From NCBI RefSeq assembly GCF_004168035.1, contig NZ_SDPU01000014.1:1-64000 (forward strand): DNA of 64,000 nucleotides, written 5' to 3'. A program made the position numbers and the translations under genes. The DNA is from Nocardioides iriomotensis. Its GTDB lineage: Bacteria; Actinomycetota; Actinomycetes; Propionibacteriales; Nocardioidaceae. The notes under the pieces were generated by a model. It searched no databases and was not told where the DNA came from. It worked only from the letters and a program-made list of their open reading frames with translations. Position 1 is the stretch's first letter. Every line of letters begins with the position of its first letter. This document shows, piece after piece, positions 76 to 9,946 of the stretch.

Positions 76-621
76 CTAGCGGGCCGCGACCAACGCGTCC
101 GCGATGGTCCGGCAGGTGTCGTCGAGCAGGTCCGCCACCTCGCGGTGCACGGTCTCCGACTGCCCCATCGGGTCGGGCACGTCGTGGTCGGGCACGGGCA
201 CCCCGGCCCGCAGCCGCGCCGCCGCCCGGACCAGGTCCTGGGGGCTGGTCGCGGCCTCCTTCGCGCGCGGGTCCTGGGCAAGCGTCTCGAACTCACGCAG
301 CGTGAACGCCCGCTTCATCAGCCGCGGCGCCTCCCGCACCACCTGCTCGCGGATCTCCTTCGTGGCCGTCAGCACGAGCTCCGCCTGACCGGCGAGCGCG
401 GGCGTGAACTGCCGCGCCGCAAACCCGGCCCCGTCGCTGCCCAGGCGCGCGAGCTCTCGTGCCGCGTTGGGCTCGACCGGGTAGCCCACCATCGCGCCGA
501 CCCCGGCGCTCGCGACCTCGAAGTCGCCTGCCGGCAGCCGGGCGGCCAACAGCCGCTCGGCCAGCGGGGACCGGCACACGTTGCCGACGCAGACCACGAG
601 GACGGCGAACCGCTCAGCCAT
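76..621 (-). CDS. Low-molecular-weight protein-tyrosine phosphatase
   Basis: Cytosolic phosphatase of the LMW-PTP/Wzb class, which removes phosphate from tyrosines, commonly on BY-kinases of polysaccharide export. The P-loop C11-VGNVC-R17-S18 matches C-x5-R-S, and D150 in DPMGQS stands where the general acid is expected. At 181 aa it is slightly longer than the usual 150-160. Its ATG overlaps the end of the upstream PqqD gene by 8 bases (ATGGCTGA), so it is the last visible gene of a minus-strand operon with a nucleotidyltransferase and a PqqD protein. A BY-kinase that could be its substrate is encoded at 4682. An arsenate-reductase role is less likely because the context is polysaccharide. 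Family is secure; the substrate is inferred. Confidence 0.9.
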   Translation of the reverse strand: MAERFAVLVVCVGNVCRSPLAERLLAARLPAGDFEVASAGVGAMVGYPVEPNAARELARLGSDGAGFAARQFTPALAGQAELVLTATKEIREQVVREAPRLMKRAFTLREFETLAQDPRAKEAATSPQDLVRAAARLRAGVPVPDHDVPDPMGQSETVHREVADLLDDTCRTIADALVAAR

Positions 622-895
622 GCCGGCCGTCCTCCCTGGTGATCAGTCCTCGAGCCTCCAGGTCCTCGAGGAAGGACCGTACGTCGTCGGCGACCGTGTC
701 GGCCGGCACGTCGAACAGCTCGGCCACGCTCGTGATGACGTCCTCGCCCCAGCTGGCATGGCCGATGGTGTGCCAGATAGCCGCACTCGAGCCAGTGAGC
801 ACGGCCGGCTCGTCCGGCCGCTTGAGGTCGACGAGGGCGACCCGGGAGGTGTCGCCCACCCAGGCCACGTCCGCGCCAATGGTCCAGTGGCTCAC
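614..895 (-). CDS. PqqD-like protein B (RRE-type peptide-binding fold)
   Basis: Small 93-aa protein read as PqqD family from the pattern WxxGxxVAWVGD...VALVDLKRPDEPAVLTGSSAAIW followed by a winged-helix-like segment with regularly spaced acidic and hydrophobic residues. PqqD domains bind leader peptides for RiPP-modifying enzymes, and related stand-alone forms occur beside HprK-like kinases. The start is GTG at 893-895, which overlaps the stop of the nucleotidyltransferase as GTGA; an open frame to 1057 exists but lies inside that gene. Its 3' end overlaps the phosphatase start by 8 bases, so the three genes look translationally coupled. Its peptide partner is unknown; the two nearby Tat proteins are candidates (inference). 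Confidence 0.75.
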   Translation of the reverse strand: MSHWTIGADVAWVGDTSRVALVDLKRPDEPAVLTGSSAAIWHTIGHASWGEDVITSVAELFDVPADTVADDVRSFLEDLEARGLITREDGRHG

Positions 896-1809
896 GAGCG
901 GCGCCGCTCTCGTCGAACCACCCGGACAGCGGTAGGGAGGTCTCGCAATCCGGCTCTTAGGCGGCGAATGCGGGCGGTGAAGAGTCCCCATCGACCGGGT
1001 GCGGCGTCGGGGAACGAGTTGCGGATCTCGGCTTCGGTCAGCACCAGGGCGTGCCACAGCCGGCCGGGGAGTCTGCGCCAGGGCAGCGCGGACAGTTCGG
1101 TCACCCAGCCGACTGTCTTCACGCTGGTCGTCTGGGTGCGAATGCGCCAGGCGGTGGTGTCGAAGGTGGGAGCCGGGAGCGGCGCGACACCCAGCCGCTC
1201 GAGCAACGGCGCAAGGGTCTCGTTCGCCCCGGTGACCGCGCAGACCTGGGCGAGCTGGCTCAGGTCGGCTGACGTGAGCTGCGACTCCAACGCCGTCACC
1301 AGGTAGTCGAGCTTGGGAGCGTGCGCGTCGGTGCCGTCCCGCAGCCAGTGCAGCGCGGCTACGACGGCGTGGCTGACCACGTCGGGACAGCGCACTGGTT
1401 GAGCGCCGATCCGGACGGAGCTGCGGCGTCGCCAGAGCTCGTTGAACACAAGTTCAGCGTCGGCCAAGAAGCCCGGGAACCGATCGTGCAGGTCGACCTC
1501 ACAGGGCCACAGGCGGTGCCTGAGAGTCCGCGAATGCTGAGGCAGCGCAGTTGCACCCGTGTGGGGAACCGCTTCATGCCAACCGATCGCGGCTAACGCC
1601 TCGAGCGCACGGTCACGGTCGGCGGGGCGGACCAGGACGTCGACGTCGACCGACGGGTGCGGCTCCCGCAGCCCCTGTAGCACGAGAGCATTGCCCTTCA
1701 AGCAGAGAGCCTCAATGTCGACAGCCTCGGTTGCGCGCAGCACCAGCGGGTGAGCGAGGGCGACCGCTTCGGCCGGAGTGAGTGCGCCGCTTCGCTGCGC
1801 CGAGATCAC
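892..1809 (-). CDS. Nucleotidyltransferase family protein (NTP_transf_5-like)
   Basis: A 305-aa protein with the pol-beta-fold nucleotidyltransferase signature of the NTP_transf_5 type: CLKGNALVLQGL followed by HPSVDVDVLVRPADRDRA, where the D-x-D pair would bind metal. A later EVDLHDRF segment may supply the third acid. Such proteins recur beside PqqD and HprK-like genes, and in some lasso-peptide clusters, where they are thought to transfer a nucleotide or sugar phosphate to a peptide or protein. The start is GTG at 1809, 15 bases after the stop of the Tat protein gene. It is followed by a GTGA overlap into PqqD-B. The substrate cannot be read from sequence. Confidence 0.75.
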   Translation of the reverse strand: MISAQRSGALTPAEAVALAHPLVLRATEAVDIEALCLKGNALVLQGLREPHPSVDVDVLVRPADRDRALEALAAIGWHEAVPHTGATALPQHSRTLRHRLWPCEVDLHDRFPGFLADAELVFNELWRRRSSVRIGAQPVRCPDVVSHAVVAALHWLRDGTDAHAPKLDYLVTALESQLTSADLSQLAQVCAVTGANETLAPLLERLGVAPLPAPTFDTTAWRIRTQTTSVKTVGWVTELSALPWRRLPGRLWHALVLTEAEIRNSFPDAAPGRWGLFTARIRRLRAGLRDLPTAVRVVRRERRRS

Positions 1810-1824
1810 CGGTCCAGGGTAGGT

Positions 1825-2337
1825 CTACTTGGCACTGAACGTGGTCGAACCCGTTGTCGTGCCACCCGACGACGCCACGACCGAACCGGTGAGTGCCCCG
1901 GACTCGGGGCCGCTCGTCGGAGAGAAGTGCGCGGAGAACAAGATCGTCTTGCCCGCGCCGAGCCCGCCCTTCGAGACGACCGTGATGGGGTCCGAGCCGG
2001 CGCTGGGTGTGTTCCAGTCGCGATCTGTTTTGTCCGACCACGACTTCCACGTGAGCTCGCGACCGTCGAACTCGATCGTGAGCGTGACCACGCCACACGG
2101 GAGGGTGCTGGTGTTGACCACGAGCACCTTGAGGTGGAAGCCCGCATTGCCGGTCCACTGCTGCTTCTCGATGGTGAGGACACACGAGCAGGTCGGGTCG
2201 TTGCTGCCGGCGAAGGCCGGCACCGCTGAGACGAGCTGGACTGCCGGCACCGTCCACGCGACGGTCGCGGCTCCCTTGACGAGACTGCGACGGCTGATGC
2301 TGCGCGCCTCGGACGGCAAGTGCTGGTTGGCACTCAT
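1825..2337 (-). CDS. Small Tat-exported protein A (unknown function)
   Basis: A 170-aa protein beginning MSANQHLPSEARSI, then a twin-arginine leader: SRRSLVKG, a hydrophobic stretch AWTVPAVQLVSAVPA, and likely cleavage after AFA. The mature part is about 125 aa, rich in beta-prone Thr/Ser/Gly, with Cys pairs near its start (CSC and one more Cys), resembling a single beta-sandwich domain. The ATG at 2337 is preceded by GGGGGAACTTC, a G5-type ribosome site. An open frame extends upstream to 2634 but overlaps the PqqD-A gene, so it is rejected. The leader is 23 of 31 identical to that of the Tat protein at 3810, while the mature parts do not resemble each other. The gene lies between PqqD-A and the nucleotidyltransferase on the same strand, so it may be their substrate (inference). 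Confidence 0.75.
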   Translation of the reverse strand: MSANQHLPSEARSISRRSLVKGAATVAWTVPAVQLVSAVPAFAGSNDPTCSCVLTIEKQQWTGNAGFHLKVLVVNTSTLPCGVVTLTIEFDGRELTWKSWSDKTDRDWNTPSAGSDPITVVSKGGLGAGKTILFSAHFSPTSGPESGALTGSVVASSGGTTTGSTTFSAK

Positions 2338-2467
2338 GAAGTTCCCCCACCCCTGGACTGGTGCGAATGTCGATGAACCTTGCCGCCCCGAAGTGCCCCC
2401 ACTCGGAGACGGCATCGAGAGGATCGTACGGGTTGTCCGGAATTTGGGGAACCAGGGCGGGCCAGAA

Positions 2468-2758
2468 TCAGCCGTTCGGCCGATCCTCCGCGTCGCGCAC
2501 CTCCACCACGCCGTCCGCGGCCAGCTCACGGACCAGGTCGGCTGTCGCTTTTTCCGCGCTCCTCCCGTCCGTCGGGGGGCCGACCGCCGCCGCCAGCGAC
2601 GCCGCGAGCCCGTCCACGTCGGTCCAACCCTCACCTATCAGGGCTAGCAGGCGGGTCGCCAGCGGCGAGAGCACCAGCACCCGACCATCGATCAGCACGG
2701 CTGCTTCCCCCGAGCCGTCGCGGTACTCGTCGGTCGATTTCCCCCTTCGCACTTTCAC
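2468..2758 (-). CDS. PqqD-like protein A
   Basis: A 96-aa PqqD-family protein: short N-terminal strand region, AAVLIDGRVLVLSPLATRLLALIGEGW, then a winged-helix-like segment ending ATADLVRELAADGVVEVRDA. The start is GTG at 2756-2758, overlapping the HprK-like stop as GTGA; the longer open frame to 3472 is a shadow of the kinase gene. Coupling to the kinase matches known HprK-related kinase/PqqD neighbourhoods. It probably presents a peptide or protein to the kinase (inference from PqqD biology). About 130 bases without a gene separate it from Tat protein A. Confidence 0.75.
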   Translation of the reverse strand: MKVRRGKSTDEYRDGSGEAAVLIDGRVLVLSPLATRLLALIGEGWTDVDGLAASLAAAVGPPTDGRSAEKATADLVRELAADGVVEVRDAEDRPNG

Positions 2759-3612
2759 GGCGTCGCCCCCACATGCCGACTCACAACGTCCGCGAGCTGC
2801 GCCGCCTCGCCGTACCGCACGCTGACGAGTCCCCCGGCTCGCTCGACGATCGAAGCGACGGTCGCCAGGGGCCGGTCCAGCCGGGTGAGGTAGGAGATCT
2901 GCGGTGCCAGGAGCGCAAGCGCGCGCACCGTGGTCACCGGCTCGACCTGTGGCGCCGTACGGGACGGGTCTCGGTCGAGGAGGAAGATGCCCGTCAGCTC
3001 GGGCCCCCGTCCTCCGGCGACGATCAGCCCCTCGTCGCTCGGTGCCAGCTGGGTCTTGATGCCGTTGCCGCCTTCCGCGAGCACGGACAGCGGCTTGGGA
3101 TACGGGAGGACCCTGCCGCCGGCGTCCACGGCAACGGTCTCGTCGGTGAGGTAGCGCATCGTGCGTCCGAGCAGGCGTGATGCTGTCGTCTTGCCGGTAC
3201 CGGACGGAGCGACGAGCGCGACCGTCCGGCCCGTCCCGGGGTCTGCCAGTCCCGCGGCGTGCAGCATCACCAGGCGGCCGGCGTGCGCCTCGACCAGTGC
3301 CGCCGTCAGTCGCGGGCTGAGCACGTGGAGCAGCTCGTCGAGACCGGTTGCCGCGACCGCACCGCGCGCCCCGGCCTGCCCGACCGTGCCTACATCGGGG
3401 TCGAGAACGACGTCGAGCGTCACGGACTCCGGGTAGGAGGTCAACCCGTCGCCGAGGCAGTCCGACCAGCAACGCTCGACAGCCTCCCGCGCCTGCCGGG
3501 CATGAGCGCCGGCGTAGCGGAGCACGACGGAGAGGCCCATCGCAGACAGATGGGTGTCCGCAGCAGGTCGTGGCTGGGTCACCGGGCGGAGTCTAGTGAG
3601 CCGGTCGTTCAC
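2755..3612 (-). CDS. HprK-related serine kinase-like protein
   Basis: A 285-aa protein with an HPr-kinase-like P-loop A135-PSGTGKTT-143 and a DE pair (D157, E158) in YLTDETV, as expected for the HprK catalytic core. The first 115 residues are divergent. No PTS gene (HPr, EI) is visible, so an HPr substrate is unlikely; HprK-related kinases beside PqqD proteins are thought to phosphorylate other peptides or proteins. GTG at 3612 is taken as the start because GGAAGG lies upstream, but M25 (3540) is possible. It is the first gene of the minus-strand module and is divergent from Tat protein B, with an inverted repeat in the gap. Confidence 0.75.
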   Translation of the reverse strand: MNDRLTRLRPVTQPRPAADTHLSAMGLSVVLRYAGAHARQAREAVERCWSDCLGDGLTSYPESVTLDVVLDPDVGTVGQAGARGAVAATGLDELLHVLSPRLTAALVEAHAGRLVMLHAAGLADPGTGRTVALVAPSGTGKTTASRLLGRTMRYLTDETVAVDAGGRVLPYPKPLSVLAEGGNGIKTQLAPSDEGLIVAGGRGPELTGIFLLDRDPSRTAPQVEPVTTVRALALLAPQISYLTRLDRPLATVASIVERAGGLVSVRYGEAAQLADVVSRHVGATP

Positions 3613-3623
3613 GAGCGTTGACC

Positions 3624-3648
3624 TTCCGCCGGAATGACTACGGCGGAA
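3624..3648. promoter_or_regulatory. Perfect inverted repeat between divergent genes
   Basis: TTCCGCCG (3624-3631) and CGGCGGAA (3641-3648) are exact complements separated by 9 bases. The repeat lies 12 bases before the kinase GTG and about 160 bases before Tat protein B. Its size and spacing suit a dimeric repressor, but it could also be a hairpin in the kinase mRNA leader. No regulator gene is adjacent. Confidence 0.4.
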
Positions 3649-3809
3649 CCACCCGACTGAAGGGCGGGCCGCACTGGACGTTCGGTCAACTTTCCCTCAA
3701 CCCCTGTGAGTTCGGCTCGCCGCGTGGCACGATCCTGTGTGAAGCCGCGATGCGGCGTGGGGGACCCCGGGGGGCCGGGGCAAGTTCTGTTCCGGTGGGG
3801 AGCCACAGC

Positions 3810-4601
3810 ATGACCTTGCAAGAGCACGCTTCCGAGCGTCGTCTGATCGATCGACGGACGGTAGTCCGAGGCGCGGCGGTCGCCGCCTGGACCGTCCCCG
3901 CCGTGCAATTGGTCGGCGCCGCCCCCGCCTTCGCCGGGTCAGGGCCTACGTCGTTCTCGGGTCTTTCGGGAAGCGGGTCCTACTCGACTCCATCGCGTCT
4001 TCTTCTGCTCGTATCGTTTAACAATGCAGGGGCGAGCCCGGCAACCGGGGTGCAGGTCACAGTGAAGATGCCGAGGGCGATGCCGTCAGCCCCCACGGCC
4101 GCCGGATGGAACGTCTCCGGCTCCGGCGACACCTTCGTCTTTACGCTGAACGCAACTGTCCCTGCCGGCCAAAGTCAGAGTCTGCAGGCCGATTTCACAG
4201 TGAGCGATACGACGATCGAGGGCACGGCGGCCGTCGCGCTGACGGCGACCAACGTCACGGGAACATCGAATACCAACGCGCCCATCACGCCCGCCTACAA
4301 GGTTTCGTACAGCGGCCCGACAGTCAGCAACGTGACGGGCAATCGCCGGGTCTCCGTTACAGCTATCGACAACATCGGCTCGCTGGCCGGCGTCCTTCGA
4401 GTGGCGCTGACCTTGGACCGTGCACGAACGCTGGTGGGCGGCGCGCCATCTGGGTGGTCGCATCAGGCTTCGAACGGCAATAGAACGCACACCTTCACCA
4501 GGGGACCTTTCGGTCCGAGCGACTCTGTGGTTGCGTGTGAGCCGGTCTTCGACGGAAACCTCATGGTTACATCCCACTCCGTGACCATCACCGCCAGTTG
4601 A
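3810..4601 (+). CDS. Tat-exported beta-rich surface protein B (unknown function)
   Basis: A 263-aa secreted protein. MTLQEHASERRLI leads into DRRTVVRG and AWTVPAVQLVGAAPA, with cleavage likely after AFA. The mature part looks like a DUF11/CARDB-type beta-sandwich (LLLLVSFNNAGASPATGVQVTVKMPRA...) followed by a second Ser/Thr-rich half. ATG at 3810 follows GTGGGGAGCCACAGC; upstream in-frame codons lack such a site. The leader is nearly a copy of that in Tat protein A. It has no LPxTG tail and no C-terminal membrane helix, so it is probably released or held by interactions. It is divergent from the HprK/PqqD genes and 80 bases ahead of the BY-kinase. GC looks lower than in the kinase gene that follows. 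Confidence 0.75.
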   Translation: MTLQEHASERRLIDRRTVVRGAAVAAWTVPAVQLVGAAPAFAGSGPTSFSGLSGSGSYSTPSRLLLLVSFNNAGASPATGVQVTVKMPRAMPSAPTAAGWNVSGSGDTFVFTLNATVPAGQSQSLQADFTVSDTTIEGTAAVALTATNVTGTSNTNAPITPAYKVSYSGPTVSNVTGNRRVSVTAIDNIGSLAGVLRVALTLDRARTLVGGAPSGWSHQASNGNRTHTFTRGPFGPSDSVVACEPVFDGNLMVTSHSVTITAS

Positions 4602-4681: not shown

Positions 4682-6142
4682 GTGGAACTCACTGATTACT
4701 TGCGTGTGTTGCGCGCACACTGGCTCGGTTTTGTCGCCCTGATGCTGGTCGGTGTCGGAGCTGCAGCGATCTTCAATCTCACTCAGCCGCGGGTATACGC
4801 CGCCGACGCCACTGGCTTTGTGAGCGCAGGTAACGACACCAACCCCGCGTTGGGGTCGGTAGCAGACACCCTGGCGAAGTCGCGCGCCAAGTCGTACGTC
4901 GACATCGCCCGCAGCCGCGCCACGGCCGAGGGAGTCATCGACGAGCTGGGCCTCGACGACTCGCCGGCCTCGCTCATCGGCAAGATCTCCGTCGAGCAGC
5001 CGCTGGACACCGTGCTGATCAAGGTGACCGCCAGGGACGCCACTCCGCTGGGAGCTCAGCAACTCGCCGACGCGTGGGTCTCGGCGTTAGCGGACCAGGT
5101 CGCCGAGATCGAGAATCCGCGCGGCGAAGCGGGGGCCCTCAAGGTCGTCCCGATCGAAGCGGCCGCCCTGCCGTCGGCACCGGTGTCACCCCGCGTCGAG
5201 CTCAACCTGCTAATCGGCGGTGTCGTCGGTGTCCTGCTGGGCCTGGCCTACGCGCTGCTGCGCAACCAGCTCGACCGTCGGCTGCGGTCGTCCCAGGCCG
5301 TCGAGCGGCAGTTCGGCGTCACCGTCGTCGGCGCGATCCCGACCGCCAGCGACCTCGCCTCGACGGACGGCGCCGGCCCGGTCGCCGTCCAGGACCGCAG
5401 CGGCTCGCAGCGCCGCTCGGAGTCGGCCGAGGCGTTCCGCAAGCTGCGCACCAACCTGCAGTTCATGGACGTCGACAACCCGCCCCGGGTCATCATCATC
5501 ACCAGCCCGCAGCAGGGCGACGGCAAGTCGACGGTCGCGGCCAACCTCGCCGGCGCGCTGGCGGTCTCCGGTGAGCCGGTGATCCTCATCGACGGCGACC
5601 TCCGCCGACCCACGGTCGCCGAGAAGTTCGGGCTCGTCGAGGGCGCGGGCCTCACCGACGTGCTGATCGGGCGGGTCGACTTCGAGGACGTCGCCCAGGA
5701 GCACCCCGATTACCCCAACCTGCTGCTCCTCGCCGCCGGCGGCGTACCGCCCAACCCGAGCGAGCTGCTCGGCTCCCAGACCATGCGCCAGCTGCTCACC
5801 GAGCTGGCCAAGACGGCGCTTGTCATCGTCGACGCGCCGCCGCTGCTGCCGGTCACCGACGCCGCGGTGCTGACCGCCGTCGCCGACGGCGCGTTCGTGG
5901 TCATCTCCAGCGGGCGGACGGTCGACACCGAGCTCCGCGACGCCCTGGCGAACCTCGACGCCGTCCGCGGCCGGGCGCTGGGCGTGATCCTCAACCGGGT
6001 CGCCCGCCGCGACGCCGCGGCCGGCTACTACGGCGGCACCTACGAGCTCTCAGACAAGGACAAGGTCCCCGCCGCCGTGGGGGCCACCGACGAGGCCGAC
6101 GCGACCGAGGTCTCGAGCAAGCACCGCCGCCGGACCGCCTGA
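4682..6142 (+). CDS. Polysaccharide co-polymerase / BY-kinase (Wzz plus CapB-like)
   Basis: Inner-membrane chain-length regulator with tyrosine autokinase activity. The N-terminal Wzz domain is bounded by membrane helices at about 15-36 and 172-195. The kinase half has Walker A S-PQQGDGKST (275-284), Walker A' LIDGDLRRP (302-310) and a later VIVDAPPLLPVTDA. The tail has a small tyrosine group (GYYGGTYELS), a short version of the Tyr cluster these kinases autophosphorylate. At 486 aa it is the usual fused actinobacterial form. The GTG start follows GGGGGAAGAGC. It pairs functionally with the LMW-PTP at 76 and with the Wzy-type genes from 8720 to 16720. Confidence 0.9.
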   Translation: MELTDYLRVLRAHWLGFVALMLVGVGAAAIFNLTQPRVYAADATGFVSAGNDTNPALGSVADTLAKSRAKSYVDIARSRATAEGVIDELGLDDSPASLIGKISVEQPLDTVLIKVTARDATPLGAQQLADAWVSALADQVAEIENPRGEAGALKVVPIEAAALPSAPVSPRVELNLLIGGVVGVLLGLAYALLRNQLDRRLRSSQAVERQFGVTVVGAIPTASDLASTDGAGPVAVQDRSGSQRRSESAEAFRKLRTNLQFMDVDNPPRVIIITSPQQGDGKSTVAANLAGALAVSGEPVILIDGDLRRPTVAEKFGLVEGAGLTDVLIGRVDFEDVAQEHPDYPNLLLLAAGGVPPNPSELLGSQTMRQLLTELAKTALVIVDAPPLLPVTDAAVLTAVADGAFVVISSGRTVDTELRDALANLDAVRGRALGVILNRVARRDAAAGYYGGTYELSDKDKVPAAVGATDEADATEVSSKHRRRTA

Positions 6143-6185: not shown

Positions 6186-7025
6186 ATGACCGTCCCGTCC
6201 GACCGCCTCCTGATCACGCTCGCCCCCACCGGGGCCGAGACGTCCAAGGAGGACTGCCCGCAGCTCCCGACCACGCTCGAAGAGCTCGTCGACACCGCCC
6301 GCCGCTGCGAGGCCGCCGGCGCCGCGATGATCCACGTGCACATCCGCGACGAAGAGCACAAGCCCAGCCTCGACCCGGGCCGGCTGGCGGCGACCGTCGA
6401 GGCGCTGCGCGACCAGACCAACCTCGTCGTCCAGTTGTCCACCGGCGGCAGCGTGCACGACCCGCTCGACGCCCGGCTCAAGGTGCTCGACGCCGAGCCC
6501 GACTCCTGCAGCCTGACCATGGGCACCACCAACTTCGGCGACGATGTCTTCTCCAACCCCTGGCCGTTCATCACCGAGCTCTACCGGCTCTCCCAGGAGC
6601 GCGAGGTGGTCCCCGAGTTCGAGCTGTTCGACCTCGGCCACGTCGCCGCCCTGCGGCGGTTGCTGGACAAGCTCGGCCTGCCGTACGGCGGCCGGGTGCA
6701 CGTCGACCTCGTGATGGGCGTGCCCGGCGGGATGCCCGGCACCGCCGACGCGCTCGTCGCCGCCGTCGCGGCGCTGCCCGAGGCGGTGACGTCGTGGTCG
6801 GCCACGGGCATCGGACGGTCGACCCTGGCCGTCGCCCTGGCGTCGCTGAGCAAGGGCGGCCACCTGCGGGTCGGCATGGAGGACGTGCTCACCCTGGCCA
6901 AGGGCGTCCCCGTCGAGCACAACGAGCAGCTCGTCTCCCGGGTCGTCGAGCTCGGCCGGATCGCGCAGCGCACCCCGATGACGCCGACTGAGGCGCGCGA
7001 CCTGCTGCAGGTCAAGCGGCGGTAG
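6186..7025 (+). CDS. BKACE family beta-keto acid cleavage enzyme (DUF849)
   Basis: A 279-aa TIM-barrel enzyme of the 3-keto-5-aminohexanoate cleavage family, which condenses a beta-keto acid with acetyl-CoA and splits it to acetoacetate and a CoA ester using a divalent metal. Visible signatures are LIITLAPTGAE near the N-terminus, the metal pair H50 and H52 in MIHVHIRDEEHKPSLD, and EFELFDLGHV further on. No lysine-fermentation genes are nearby, so the substrate is unknown. ATG at 6186 lies 43 bases after the BY-kinase stop. It is probably unrelated to polysaccharide. Confidence 0.85.
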   Translation: MTVPSDRLLITLAPTGAETSKEDCPQLPTTLEELVDTARRCEAAGAAMIHVHIRDEEHKPSLDPGRLAATVEALRDQTNLVVQLSTGGSVHDPLDARLKVLDAEPDSCSLTMGTTNFGDDVFSNPWPFITELYRLSQEREVVPEFELFDLGHVAALRRLLDKLGLPYGGRVHVDLVMGVPGGMPGTADALVAAVAALPEAVTSWSATGIGRSTLAVALASLSKGGHLRVGMEDVLTLAKGVPVEHNEQLVSRVVELGRIAQRTPMTPTEARDLLQVKRR

Positions 7026-7060
7026 CCGGTCGGAACGCGGTTGGGCCGGCCGGGGCGCGG

Positions 7061-7507
7061 TCAGCCCGCCGGCGCCTCGCAGTCCAGGCAGGTGCCGAAC
7101 ACCGTCAGGTGCGCCACATCGACCTCGAACCCCTCGCCCTCGCGGAACGTCGCCACCAGCTCGGCCGTGCGCGGCTGGGAGAGCTCGCGGACCCTGCCGC
7201 AGCGGCGGCACACCGTGTGCGCGTGCGGCGGCGACGTCGTCGAGTGGTAGGTCGGGGCCCGGTCGTGCAGGTGCGCGTGCCGGACCAGCCCGAGCTCCTC
7301 CAGCAGGTCGAGGGTGCGGTACACCGTGGACAGGCTGACCGCCGAGGTCGACTTGCGGACCTCGGCCAGCACCTCGTCCGGGGTGGCGTGCCCGAGCGTG
7401 TCGACCGCCTGCAGCACCAACTCGCGCTGGGCGGTCAGCCGGTGCCCGCTCGCCCGCAGCCGCTCACGCCAGCTGTCGCCCGCGGTCGCGTCGTGTGTCT
7501 CGGCCAC
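7061..7507 (-). CDS. Fur family metal-dependent regulator
   Basis: A 148-aa DNA-binding repressor. The winged helix spans about residues 10-80 (GHRLTAQRELVLQAV...SLSTVYRTLDLLEELG). The C-terminal dimer domain carries a structural zinc site C100-x2-C103 and C140-x2-C143, and the metal-sensing HAHTVC segment (H95, H97). Fur, Zur and PerR cannot be separated from sequence alone. The arrangement with DsrE, a tiny membrane protein and nitrobindin resembles a neighbourhood seen in other actinobacteria. It is separated by 44 bases from the DsrE gene on the same strand. Confidence 0.88.
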   Translation of the reverse strand: MAETHDATAGDSWRERLRASGHRLTAQRELVLQAVDTLGHATPDEVLAEVRKSTSAVSLSTVYRTLDLLEELGLVRHAHLHDRAPTYHSTTSPPHAHTVCRRCGRVRELSQPRTAELVATFREGEGFEVDVAHLTVFGTCLDCEAPAG

Positions 7508-7551
7508 CCGCCCATCCTAGGAGCCGGCCGAGGCGCTTCCGTCCGGACGAG

Positions 7552-7914
7552 TCAGTAGACCAGGGCCTGCGTCCCCTCGGCCAGCGCCTCCTCGACGAAC
7601 ACCGCGGCCCCGGCGATCCGCACGCCCGGCAGGGTGTCGTCCTCGCCCAGGCCACGCCGGGCCGCGCACTGCGTGCACAGGGTGACCTGGCCGCCCTCGC
7701 GCACGATCGTGACCAGCGCGCCGGCCGGGGAGGCGTGCGGCAGCCCAAGGTCCGGCGTACGGTCCCCGGTCGCGAACCACGCCGCCTCCCCGGTCAGCCA
7801 CAGGCTGACATCGGCCCCCGCCGCCACCGCGGCCGACGCCACGGTCAGGCCCTGGTTGCTCCGCTCGGGGTCGTCGGTGCCGCACGTCACCTTGACCAGC
7901 AGTCGTCGTGCCAT
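7552..7914 (-). CDS. DsrE family protein
   Basis: A 120-aa protein with the Rossmann-like DsrE/DsrF fold: LLVKVTCGTDDPERSNQGLTVASAAVAAGADVSLWLTGEAAWF, then a Cys pair LCTQCAARRGL. Three cysteines (C11, C80, C83) could carry sulfur or form a disulfide. DsrE proteins relay sulfur or have uncharacterised roles. It lies on the same strand as Fur and divergent from the microprotein at 7939 with only 24 bases between, so the promoters must overlap the coding ends. Confidence 0.8.
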   Translation of the reverse strand: MARRLLVKVTCGTDDPERSNQGLTVASAAVAAGADVSLWLTGEAAWFATGDRTPDLGLPHASPAGALVTIVREGGQVTLCTQCAARRGLGEDDTLPGVRIAGAAVFVEEALAEGTQALVY

Positions 7915-7938
7915 GCCCCGAACACTAGACTCCGCCTC

Positions 7939-8043
7939 ATGGAAGCCGTGTTCATCGCCCTGATGGCGCTGGTCGTGCTGCTCAGCGGCTACGTCAGCCT
8001 GCTCGTGCTCTACCGCCTGTTCAAGGCGGACGAGCAGCGGTAA
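7939..8043 (+). CDS. 34-aa single-span membrane microprotein
   Basis: A 34-residue open frame beginning MEAVFIALMALVVLLSGY: an N-terminal helix of about 22 hydrophobic residues, then YRLFKADEQR with a positive cytoplasmic-side end. The TAA overlaps the ATG of nitrobindin (TAATG), so translation is probably coupled. Coding is supported by that overlap, by the clear membrane segment and by the lack of space for another gene. Function unknown; it may anchor or modulate the neighbouring heme protein (inference). Confidence 0.65.
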   Translation: MEAVFIALMALVVLLSGYVSLLVLYRLFKADEQR

Positions 8044-8543
8044 TGCCGTTCGAGATCCCGGACAACCTCCACCCCGACTGCGCGCCCGTCGCCTGGCTGC
8101 TCGGCACCTGGCGGGGCAACGGGCACGGGGACTACCCCACGATCGAGGCGTTCCAGTTCGGCCAGGAGTGCATCTTCACCCACGACGGCCGGCCCTTCTT
8201 CCACTACATGAGCCGCGCCTGGATCGTCGACGACAACGGCGACAAGGTCCGTGACGCCGCCATCGAGACCGGGTTCCTGCGTCCCAAGGCCGACGGCTCG
8301 CTCGAGCTGCTGCTCACGCACAACACCGGTTTCGTCGAGATCTGGTACGGCACCGCCGAGATCGGCACCCCGCGCGTCGAGCTCACCACCGACGCCGTCG
8401 TCCGCACCCAGACCGCCAAGGAGTACACCGGCGGCCACCGGATGTACGGCATGGTCGAGGGCGACCTGCTCTGGGCCTACGACATGGCCGCGATGGGTCA
8501 GGCGCTCCAGCCGCACCTGTGGGGGCGGCTAGTCCGCCAGTAG
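8043..8543 (+). CDS. Nitrobindin-like heme-binding beta-barrel protein (FABP family)
   Basis: A 166-aa ten-stranded beta-barrel of the nitrobindin/DUF1794 family, which binds heme b and reacts with NO and peroxynitrite. The family signature GxWxGxG is seen as G21-TWRGNG-27, followed by DYPTIEAFQFGQE, and the likely proximal ligand H158 is in QPHLWGRL near the C-terminus. Length matches the family. The start codon overlaps the microprotein stop. The Fur regulator two genes away is consistent with iron or heme control (inference). Confidence 0.88.
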   Translation: MPFEIPDNLHPDCAPVAWLLGTWRGNGHGDYPTIEAFQFGQECIFTHDGRPFFHYMSRAWIVDDNGDKVRDAAIETGFLRPKADGSLELLLTHNTGFVEIWYGTAEIGTPRVELTTDAVVRTQTAKEYTGGHRMYGMVEGDLLWAYDMAAMGQALQPHLWGRLVRQ

Positions 8544-8719
8544 TCCGATGCTCGTCAGCACTCGTCCAGCCGTGTCACCGTCGCGTCCGTACCGCGCCAC
8601 GAGGGGGCGCCACCAACGTCGCCGAGCACGTGCTGGGCTAACGTCGCCATAGGTCCTGACTCAGCAGGCTGGGGAGTTCGAACACTTAGCCACGCTCCGG
8701 CGTCTGCTCGCGTAGCCTC

Positions 8720-9946
8720 GTGCGAGTGATTCGGGGGACGGGGCGCTGGGCGCCGCACGAGCTCGCGGTTATCGCGATGGGCTTCCTGCTACCGCTGGGT
8801 GGCGACCAGACGGTACCGCCGTGGCTGGCCTACGACTCGGTGAAGTTCCTGACGATCGCGGCTGCGGCCGTGCTTCTCGTCTACAACCAGCTCGGTCAGC
8901 GGCCGTCGTTTGCCCTCGATCACCGTTTGCGACGGAGTCTCGTCCCGCTCATCGCCTACGGTCTAGTTCTTGGCGTCGCGAGCCTGGCGTGGTCCTTGCC
9001 GGGAAACCGAATGGCACTCTACGTCGCACACATCGTCGCCACGGTCGGCGCGTTCATCCTGGCTGAACGCGGCCGGCCAGGTGCGTGGCTCGACATCGTC
9101 TACCGGATCAGCGTGCTGCAGCTGGCCTACCACGCGGTGGTTGGGCAACGGGCCGGACTGTTCGGGGAGGTTGAGCGGCTCAGCGGCGGCCTCAGCGCCG
9201 TGTCGCTCGGCTTCGTAGCGGCAATGGTGCTGGGCTACTCGATTCACCGGTTCGAGCGCGGGAAGCGCGCCCTGTCGCTGCTCGTGGCGGGCCTGGCTTT
9301 GTACATGCTGTACGCCACGTTCAGTCGGGCGGCGCTCGTCTCGGCGGGGCTCGGGATCTTGCTGGTCATCGCCCTGCGCGGCCGCAGTCGGTTCGTGCGC
9401 ATGCTTGTCGTGGTTGGTGGCGGTGTGCTCGCGTATCAGGCGGCCGGCGACGCTCTGCTCAATGCGCTCTCTGGCGCCGAGCGGGCTGGCGTGGACACAC
9501 TCACCGGGCGGGTTCCGATCTGGCAGACGATCATCGACGTCAACGAGCACTGGTGGCGGGGTTACGGATACGCCGCGCTTCGATTCGACGATGGCGCCGG
9601 GCCGGACAGTGGCCTCTACGTAGCCACTGGAAAGTTGCCCGCCGAGAGCGGCCTGCTCAACGCACTCGTGATGGGGGGAGTCGTCGCGGCTGGCTTGTGG
9701 TTGTGGTTCATCCTCTGCGTATTTCGCGACCTCTGGCGGGCCCGCCGAGAGGCTCCGGTAGCGGCCTACTTCCTTGTCGTTCTGGCGGTGAACGCGGTGT
9801 TGTCTAATGGCACCTCAGGTAGTCCGCCCGTCTTTTGGTGGGTGCTAGGCGCCTTGTCCTTGTTGGCTTCGCTCGGCAACAGGGCGGACAGCGGACACGT
9901 CAGCGCTGAGCCACCAGCAGTCGTGCAGCGACGCGCATCCTGGTGA
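8720..9946 (+). CDS. O-antigen ligase/polymerase-like membrane protein (Wzy candidate)
   Basis: A 408-aa protein with about ten to twelve hydrophobic helices and a large extracytoplasmic loop around residues 240-320 (WQTIIDVNEHWWRGYGYAALRF...), typical of Wzy_C/O-antigen ligase proteins. It would polymerise repeat units outside the membrane. The RGYGYG-like segment and the arginine-rich loop fit the family. The GTG start at 8720 has no convincing ribosome site; GTG at 8726 is an alternative. GC is visibly lower than in flanking genes. It is convergent with the flippase-like gene. Confidence 0.8.
   Translation: MRVIRGTGRWAPHELAVIAMGFLLPLGGDQTVPPWLAYDSVKFLTIAAAAVLLVYNQLGQRPSFALDHRLRRSLVPLIAYGLVLGVASLAWSLPGNRMALYVAHIVATVGAFILAERGRPGAWLDIVYRISVLQLAYHAVVGQRAGLFGEVERLSGGLSAVSLGFVAAMVLGYSIHRFERGKRALSLLVAGLALYMLYATFSRAALVSAGLGILLVIALRGRSRFVRMLVVVGGGVLAYQAAGDALLNALSGAERAGVDTLTGRVPIWQTIIDVNEHWWRGYGYAALRFDDGAGPDSGLYVATGKLPAESGLLNALVMGGVVAAGLWLWFILCVFRDLWRARREAPVAAYFLVVLAVNAVLSNGTSGSPPVFWWVLGALSLLASLGNRADSGHVSAEPPAVVQRRASW

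Follow-up and report, generated by a model that had tools for sequence, protein, structure and literature searches.

A stretch of 64,000 nucleotides from Nocardioides iriomotensis (assembly GCF_004168035.1, contig NZ_SDPU01000014.1, positions 1 to 64,000 of the forward strand; the window, below) carries at positions 76 to 4,601 genes for an HprK-like kinase, a nucleotidyltransferase of the NTP_transf_5 family, two proteins with twin-arginine translocation (Tat) signals, and two PqqD proteins, which are predicted recognition elements (RREs) of the type known from ribosomally synthesized and post-translationally modified peptides (RiPPs). The reading that best fits the data, to which we give a probability of roughly 0.6, is that these genes form a leader-guided protein-modification module acting on Tat-exported proteins. 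The link between the module and one distinctive Tat leader is strong by computation, and the chemistry is proposed from the register that the leader motif shares with that of the LPP clusters of Bacillota. The computed support consists of gene order, the predicted recognition fold of PqqD-B, the family of PqqD-A, the register of the motif, the conservation of a Ser residue, and the co-occurrence of the module with dispersed leader proteins. The genes and motifs concerned are as follows.

614..895, minus strand: PqqD-A, predicted RRE adjoining the nucleotidyltransferase (Pfam PqqD 5.9e-10, 39.8 bits, over cut-off)
892..1809, minus strand: NTP_transf_5 nucleotidyltransferase (Pfam PF14907 4.5e-13, 49.8 bits, over cut-off)
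1825..2337, minus strand: Tat protein A, putative substrate, in the operon between PqqD-B and NTP_transf_5 (W-16, P-13, V-11, Ser+2)
2200..2307, minus strand: leader motif of Tat protein A (profile A1, E 2.3e-13)
2468..2758, minus strand: PqqD-B, predicted RRE paired with the kinase (profiles and predicted fold; no curated cut-off passed)
2755..3612, minus strand: HprK-like kinase (TIGR04352, HprK-related kinase A, 2.2e-6, far below cut-off; alignment A3)
3810..4601, plus strand: Tat protein B, putative substrate, divergent from the operon (W-16, P-13, V-11, Ser+2)
3837..3944, plus strand: leader motif of Tat protein B (profile A1, E 2.8e-14)

Tat proteins A and B (170 and 263 amino acids) have leaders that are identical at 23 of 31 positions, a recount that agrees with the preliminary description of this DNA. 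The mature parts, which that description calls unrelated, show no detectable similarity: phmmer found no match between them, and BLAST matches were at chance level (E 4.6 and 5.6). Both proteins show the RR motif, the hydrophobic stretch and the AxA of a Tat signal, and the Pfam TAT_signal family gives 10.9 bits for Tat protein A against a cut-off of 22.7 and no match for Tat protein B. Relative to AxA, from which alone the cleavage site is predicted, both leaders have Trp at -16, Pro at -13 and Val at -11, and Ser follows at +2. A leader profile (A1), made from 20 leaders located near kinases, finds these two proteins in the window's own genome at E<1e-5, with the third match at E 0.08.

The spacing within the leader was measured with a pattern in which W and P were fixed, the distance to AxA was free between 13 and 24, and position -11 and the Ser were unconstrained. 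The 99 raw hits were reduced to 89 proteins by removal of 10 that were open-ended or compositionally false. The distance from W to AxA is 16 residues in 87 of the 89, and that from RR to W is 9 residues in 79 and 12 in 8. Because the former is fixed while the latter varies, the conserved spacing in these sequences is that from the motif to the predicted cleavage site rather than to RR. In 76 of the 78 most regular proteins, V or I occupies position -11. Ser occupies +2 in 77 of the 89; among the other 12 it is at +3 in seven and at +4 in one, was misread (and is truly at +2) in one, and is missing from +1 to +4 in three, two of them in genome G017 and one in G106 (L177). A pattern-free run of the profile over all fetched DNA, which is not independent of the profile seeds since most of the loci had been fetched with that same profile, gave 117 distinct matches of at least 25 bits. 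WxxP is present in 112 of these, together with V or I at -11 in 108, AxA at -3/-1 in 99, Ser at +2 in 99 and Thr there in 4. RR-to-W distances are mostly 9, 12 and 15-16 residues, as though three-residue steps precede a fixed part.

The leader follows the kinase across genomes. Relatives of the window kinase (E<=1e-5) occur in 68 of 293 genomes of its order, with 75 matches in total, and the leader profile matches in 69, with 232 matches at E<=1e-5 and as many as 14 in one genome. Both are present in 66 genomes, the kinase only in 2, the leader only in 3 and neither in 222 (phi 0.95; Fisher 2.7e-59, a value that overstates the association since the genomes are related). Differences inside the window's genus (G000 versus G191) and inside one large genus (g3) speak for a link beyond shared ancestry. 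Among 40 chosen genomes, the profile at E<1e-5 matches in 20/20 kinase-positives and 0/20 kinase-negatives, the best match in the latter being partial (E 0.0017). The concern raised in the preliminary description, that a leader of the AWTVPAVQ type might be common in related Tat proteins and equally frequent in genomes that lack the module, is not borne out by these counts. In 12 of the 20 positive genomes no more than 5 kb separate the kinase from the nearest leader, and in 16 no more than 50 kb; other leaders are dispersed.

In control searches of the 40 genomes, neither generic Tat signals nor distant homologues of the bacterial tyrosine kinase (BY-kinase) tell kinase-positives from kinase-negatives. 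Generic Tat signals match in 40/40 genomes at a loose E<=1 and exceed the family cut-off in 11/40, and BY-kinase genes are found at E<=1e-20 in 39/40, including 19/20 kinase-negatives. The last count rejects polysaccharide loci in general as the cause of the association. NTP_transf_5 was likewise rejected as the determinant, being found in 20/20 positives and also among the negatives (see below). Given the leader-profile counts and these controls, a generic leader is rejected as well, and the shared leader goes beyond an ordinary Tat signal.

Two exceptions in the order sample have candidate partners: in G192, PqqD adjoins a partial match to the kinase (4.8e-32), and G261 has a divergent kinase with two Tat genes nearby that carry WxxPxV, with a W-to-AxA distance of 15 in both. 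A class sample of 393 genomes, nine of whose kinase-positive genomes are shared with the order sample, has the kinase profile (E<=1e-15) in 26 genomes, the leader in 23 and both in 18. When only strong kinases (E<=1e-50) are counted, 17 of 18 genomes have the leader; outside the order, the figure is 8 of 9. In five of the eight class-sample genomes with a kinase hit only (G399, G364, G493, G528 and G307), the neighbouring DNA contains a leader gene, and in two of the five with a leader only (G409 and G478), a weak kinase lies directly beside the leader.

The enzymes and recognition proteins recur as a unit. Sixty-one loci were compared, namely the window and 60 of the other 74 kinase matches, in stretches of up to 18 kb, or 20 kb in the case of the window. 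PqqD is present in 61/61, with 106 PqqD frames in all, and in 60/61 one follows the kinase at a distance of no more than 150 bp on its strand. NTP_transf_5 was found in 45/61. A single open frame covers both kinase and PqqD in 25/61 loci, and both NTP_transf_5 and PqqD in 5. Therefore, fusion is likely in the single-frame loci, and the recognition protein appears to belong to its enzyme. The arrangement of the window, in which a Tat gene with this leader separates PqqD-B from NTP_transf_5, is seen in 6/61 loci. Several of the listed 130-1300 bp gaps between module genes contain a Tat gene, and eleven contain a reverse-strand VanZ-like frame. One such VanZ-like gene, at L078:7718-8164 (Pfam 3e-16), lies on the opposite strand between an NTP_transf_5-PqqD pair and an HprK-PqqD pair; L075, L079, L080, L082 and L086-L091 have one in a like place, as judged by look only.

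The predicted structure of PqqD-B is a winged helix with a three-stranded sheet, three helices and terminal strands, and comparison of the model returns lasso-peptide RRE complexes in its top rows. By this prediction, PqqD-B has the fold of a recognition domain of the lasso type. The family profile of PqqD-A (A5) matches the lasso RRE TbiB1 (5v1u) at 3.3e-13, and the residues of the binding pocket are kept in part. In the kinase family, His118, the P-loop Lys141, Asp157 and Glu158 are invariant (alignment A3, 22 sequences), and an Asp-Glu pair is also present in nine divergent kinases and in a kinase from Azoarcus taiwanensis. The kinase profile A3 reaches the kinase of G478 (8.1e-15), which itself scores 27.8 bits with Hpr_kinase_C against a cut-off of 33.3. 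For the PqqD side, TIGR04353 gives 18.4 and 17.1 bits against a cut-off of 35.

The proposed mechanism draws on the LPP system (PMC13381572), whose recognition domains bind a [Y/W]xxP motif. LPP clusters lie inside capsular loci and encode an HprK-like kinase, an RRE, an NTP transferase, an archaeal-type signal peptidase and an exporter, and the leader reads YxxPxVLxHQxIxFETxxS. Y-16 and P-13 are required there for efficient RRE binding, V-11 sits in a second pocket, and the kinase LppK phosphorylates core Ser3, multiply; S3A, S3T and S3Y are not phosphorylated. Deletion of the NTP transferase caused no visible change. For the lasso-peptide kinase BsfK (PMC10368454), Ser3 is again the phosphorylated residue and the leader has YxxPxL at -17 to -12. 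By analogy, we infer binding, phosphorylation, an NTP_transf_5 step, an order of events and a surface role for the present module. PqqD-B, beside or fused to the kinase, and PqqD-A, beside the nucleotidyltransferase, would bind WxxPx[V/I] within the Tat signal while the protein is still in the cytoplasm. Once bound, the precursor would present its Ser, at mature residue +2 or in some proteins +3, to the HprK-like kinase for phosphorylation, and NTP_transf_5 would then add to, or cap, the phosphate. The Tat system would export the tagged protein, and cutting at AxA would leave the tag at the N terminus, on the cell surface and in a polysaccharide-producing context. According to the preliminary description, the PqqD proteins bring the Tat precursors to the kinase and the nucleotidyltransferase; co-occurrence, the LPP-register motif and the nearby Ser lend strong computational support to that idea, and the delivery itself is a prediction.

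The candidate substrates are diverse. Their mature parts are nearly devoid of known domains and reach several hundred residues in places; Tat protein B has sub-threshold DUF11 and NPCBM-associated matches, and no Pfam family exceeded its cut-off in 17 further leader proteins. Runs of neighbouring leader proteins occur in L123, L124, L125, L129 and L131, many of them starting with ASPC and having a Cys at or close to the C-terminal end, and these perhaps form one paralogous family.

A divergent clade of PqqD-kinases (L194-L197, L200, L201, L211 and L212) is adjoined in its eight loci by a Tat gene with the same ruler. W-to-AxA is 16 in 8/8, RR-to-W is 15-16, and Ser is at +2 in 5/8 proteins; the stretches read contain no NTP_transf_5 match. 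Most of these proteins have an LPXTG-like end after a Pro-rich stretch or a short spacer. That of L196 is over the NCBIfam cut-off for an LPXTG anchor (19.1 versus 15.9) and below Pfam's; by eye, those of L194, L211, L212 and L200 end LPxTG-like and those of L197 and L201 LAxTG-like, and L195 is cut at the contig end. The module of L211, the only locus of the clade so annotated, has neighbours of glycosyltransferase, C-methyltransferase, sugar nucleotidyltransferase, dehydratase/epimerase and RmlD families. Because of these ends and of the sugar and glycosyltransferase genes beside L211, a tentative extension can be put forward, possible though on the doubtful side: a system for tagging and tethering surface proteins, analogous to those of exosortase and sortase, with a genome-wide WxxP-Tat zip code and a phosphoserine at mature residue 2, made by an RRE-guided kinase, that links to sugar or exopolysaccharide. 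A substrate of the divergent clade would then often be a modified N terminus, a Pro-rich stalk and an LPXTG-like anchor, which together would tether glycan to the cell wall.

The minus-strand genes at the start of the window run from the HprK-like kinase through PqqD-B, Tat protein A, NTP_transf_5 and PqqD-A to LMW-PTP. The junctions are overlaps of a few bases, except around Tat protein A, which has a gap of about 130 bp upstream and one of 15 bp downstream. Tat protein B and a Wzc/BY-kinase gene face away from the operon, and all eight genes translate free of internal stops. The two genes at the edges are these.

76..621, minus strand: low-molecular-weight protein tyrosine phosphatase, LMW-PTP (Pfam LMWPc 1.9e-20, 74 bits, over cut-off)
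4682..6142, plus strand: Wzc-type polysaccharide co-polymerase/BY-kinase (TIGR01007 6.9e-46, over cut-off)

Both probably lie outside the core module, the phosphatase as a polysaccharide-locus gene and the Wzc/BY-kinase as polysaccharide-locus context. A part for the phosphatase in the modification had been suggested earlier and finds no support, a PTP being present in only 20/61 loci. For the BY-kinase, named there as the alternative, the evidence is divided between its distant homologues, common in kinase-negative genomes, and its close ones, confined to module genomes among the 40 compared.

Several results weigh against a leader-guided modification module. The seed pattern for profile A1 itself demanded W (or F) and P, and five of the 117 profile matches lack WxxP. 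The motif sits in the hydrophobic part of the Tat signal, so that the RRE and the Tat machinery would have to use it in turn. The Ser is mostly at +2 here, rather than at +3 as in LPP and Bsf, and is at +4 in 3/8 divergent-clade proteins. The V-11A change in LPP leaves RRE binding unweakened (PMC13381572), which makes position -11 weak support. Of 29 PqqD-A sequences, 23 carry Ser or Thr at pocket position I44, and Y69/V71 are variable. The kinase falls below every curated HprK cut-off (27 bits versus 200 for TIGR04352), and the best 60 of the 95 matches of its profile in the PDB are P-loop stretches. G229 has a kinase and no leader, though that kinase frame is broken by a stop and the 13 kb read there contain no PqqD; in G577, G363 and G312, no leader was seen in the DNA read beside the kinase. 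Conversely, G106, G188, G504 and G513 have a leader and no detected kinase. G188 is in 180 contigs and its leaders carry the Ser; in G106, G504 and G513 no kinase lies beside the leader, and L177, the leader of G106, is the one mentioned above as lacking the Ser, an observation that speaks for the module. NTP_transf_5 was not found in 16/61 stretches, and it is present in 8/20 kinase-negative genomes. Finally, a close BY-kinase subfamily (E<=5e-136) occurs in 18/20 module genomes and 0/20 others, and this distribution is the chief result that a rival reading can use.

That rival, improbable though the best placed of its kind, holds that the export or cleavage machinery, or else a membrane factor associated with polysaccharide, recognises WxxP...AxA, and that the kinase module is only a companion of the same kind of polysaccharide locus. 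Besides the BY-kinase distribution, it is favored by the location of the motif, which is entirely inside the signal peptide. However, G183 and G199 are positive for the module and lack the close BY-kinase, many leader proteins are encoded far from the kinase, and the motif agrees in register with an RRE ligand and leads up to a conserved Ser. Archaeal-type signal peptidases are equally common with the module (18/20) and without it (19/20), and none of those listed lies within 50 kb of the kinase. In the region C1:981972-993963 of G017, one match (66.6 bits) is within about 10 kb of a run of leader proteins and far from the kinase.

Somewhat less probable again is a module that makes a small RiPP, or regulates polysaccharide enzymes by phosphorylation, with the Tat proteins as unmodified polysaccharide-binding partners. 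The window module does adjoin a BY-kinase and a PTP, and PMC13381572 describes the roles of LPP and paeninodin as not established. Yet no recurrent small precursor gene stood out in the listed gaps described above, and leader proteins encoded in trans track the kinase. It is quite unlikely that the Tat proteins are true RiPP precursors, from which the N-terminal part, once phosphorylated, is later set free as a bioactive peptide. LPP precursors are 35-200 amino acids long with variable C termini (PMC13381572), and Tat protein A would fall in this range. The mature parts of several hundred residues do not fit such a role, and the LPXTG-like ends of the divergent clade fit anchoring, not release. 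Alanine-rich h-regions are common in high-GC genomes and the A and B leaders are highly similar, but ordinary Tat signals, alike through composition or recent duplication, are hardly a credible explanation when the leader is not found in kinase-negative relatives that do have Tat-like signals, and when spacing and Ser are kept across proteins with dissimilar mature parts.

If the modification module is what it seems, it would represent a new class of leader-guided modification of exported proteins. Leader recognition of the RiPP type is known for short peptides; here a like motif appears to form part of the Tat signal in full-size exported proteins, of which a genome encodes several. A function would be provided for an unexplained set of HprK-like kinase, PqqD and NTP_transf_5 genes near polysaccharide genes, and more than 200 candidate substrates (the 232 profile matches in 69 genomes) and one candidate residue would be named. 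No title or opening of an abstract linking such a module with a Tat leader was found in a literature search that left most subscription journals and preprints outside its scope.

Among known systems, the module appears to resemble LPP most closely in its working. An RRE, an NTP transferase and a polysaccharide-locus setting are common to both, as are an aromatic-xxPx-aliphatic leader motif at -16/-13/-11 and a Ser just past the cleavage site; the kinase is probably of the same HprK-like type. The differences are that the proteins here are Tat-exported, in many cases exceed 200 residues and are encoded at scattered places, in contrast to the short peptides of LPP; that Trp replaces Tyr; and that there are two RREs. 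LPP is also described as restricted to Bacillota (PMC13381572). An LPP-type signal peptidase in the module was rejected by a search for archaeal-type signal peptidases, whose sole match in the window's genome is on another contig (24.9 bits versus a cut-off of 51.85). Because the module has no such peptidase gene and Tat protein B, at 263 amino acids, exceeds the LPP precursor length, the module is not classed as LPP.

The phosphorylated lasso peptides (paeninodin and Bsf) share with it the RRE, nucleotidyltransferase and W/YxxP leader and probably the HprK-like kinase, and the Ser3 specificity reported for BsfK is comparable. They differ in their B2 leader peptidase (PF13471), which, as the preliminary description had noted for the visible genes, was not found in the window's genome; a lasso cluster is rejected on this basis. 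PF13471 matches occur in 2/20 module genomes, where about 197 kb and 307 kb separate them from the kinase. The latter (G220:C2:1334529-1336835) lies beside a strong NTP_transf_5 match and is perhaps part of a separate lasso-like cluster.

The HPr-rel-A system (TIGR04352/TIGR04353) provides the nearest named families for the kinase and PqqD, although the window proteins score far below the cut-offs. One scan of the named genome collection with the window kinase returned a sole relative, in Azoarcus taiwanensis (L214:6780-9673), where a Tat-like gene heads the others.

6780-7409: Tat-like gene (by eye)
7406-7705: PqqD (by eye)
7680-8594: kinase (profile)
8591-9673: NTP_transf_5 (profile)

Judged by eye, and as a single case, the Azoarcus leader has P-13 and V-11, but Ala instead of Trp at -16 and no Ser at +2 or +3.

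In exosortase/PEP-CTERM systems, one module with a transpeptidase enzyme serves many substrates that are marked by a short signal, in a polysaccharide setting. Dispersed substrates with a short signal and the polysaccharide setting are found here as well; the signal, however, is N-terminal in the present case, and the enzymes are a kinase and a nucleotidyltransferase rather than a transpeptidase.

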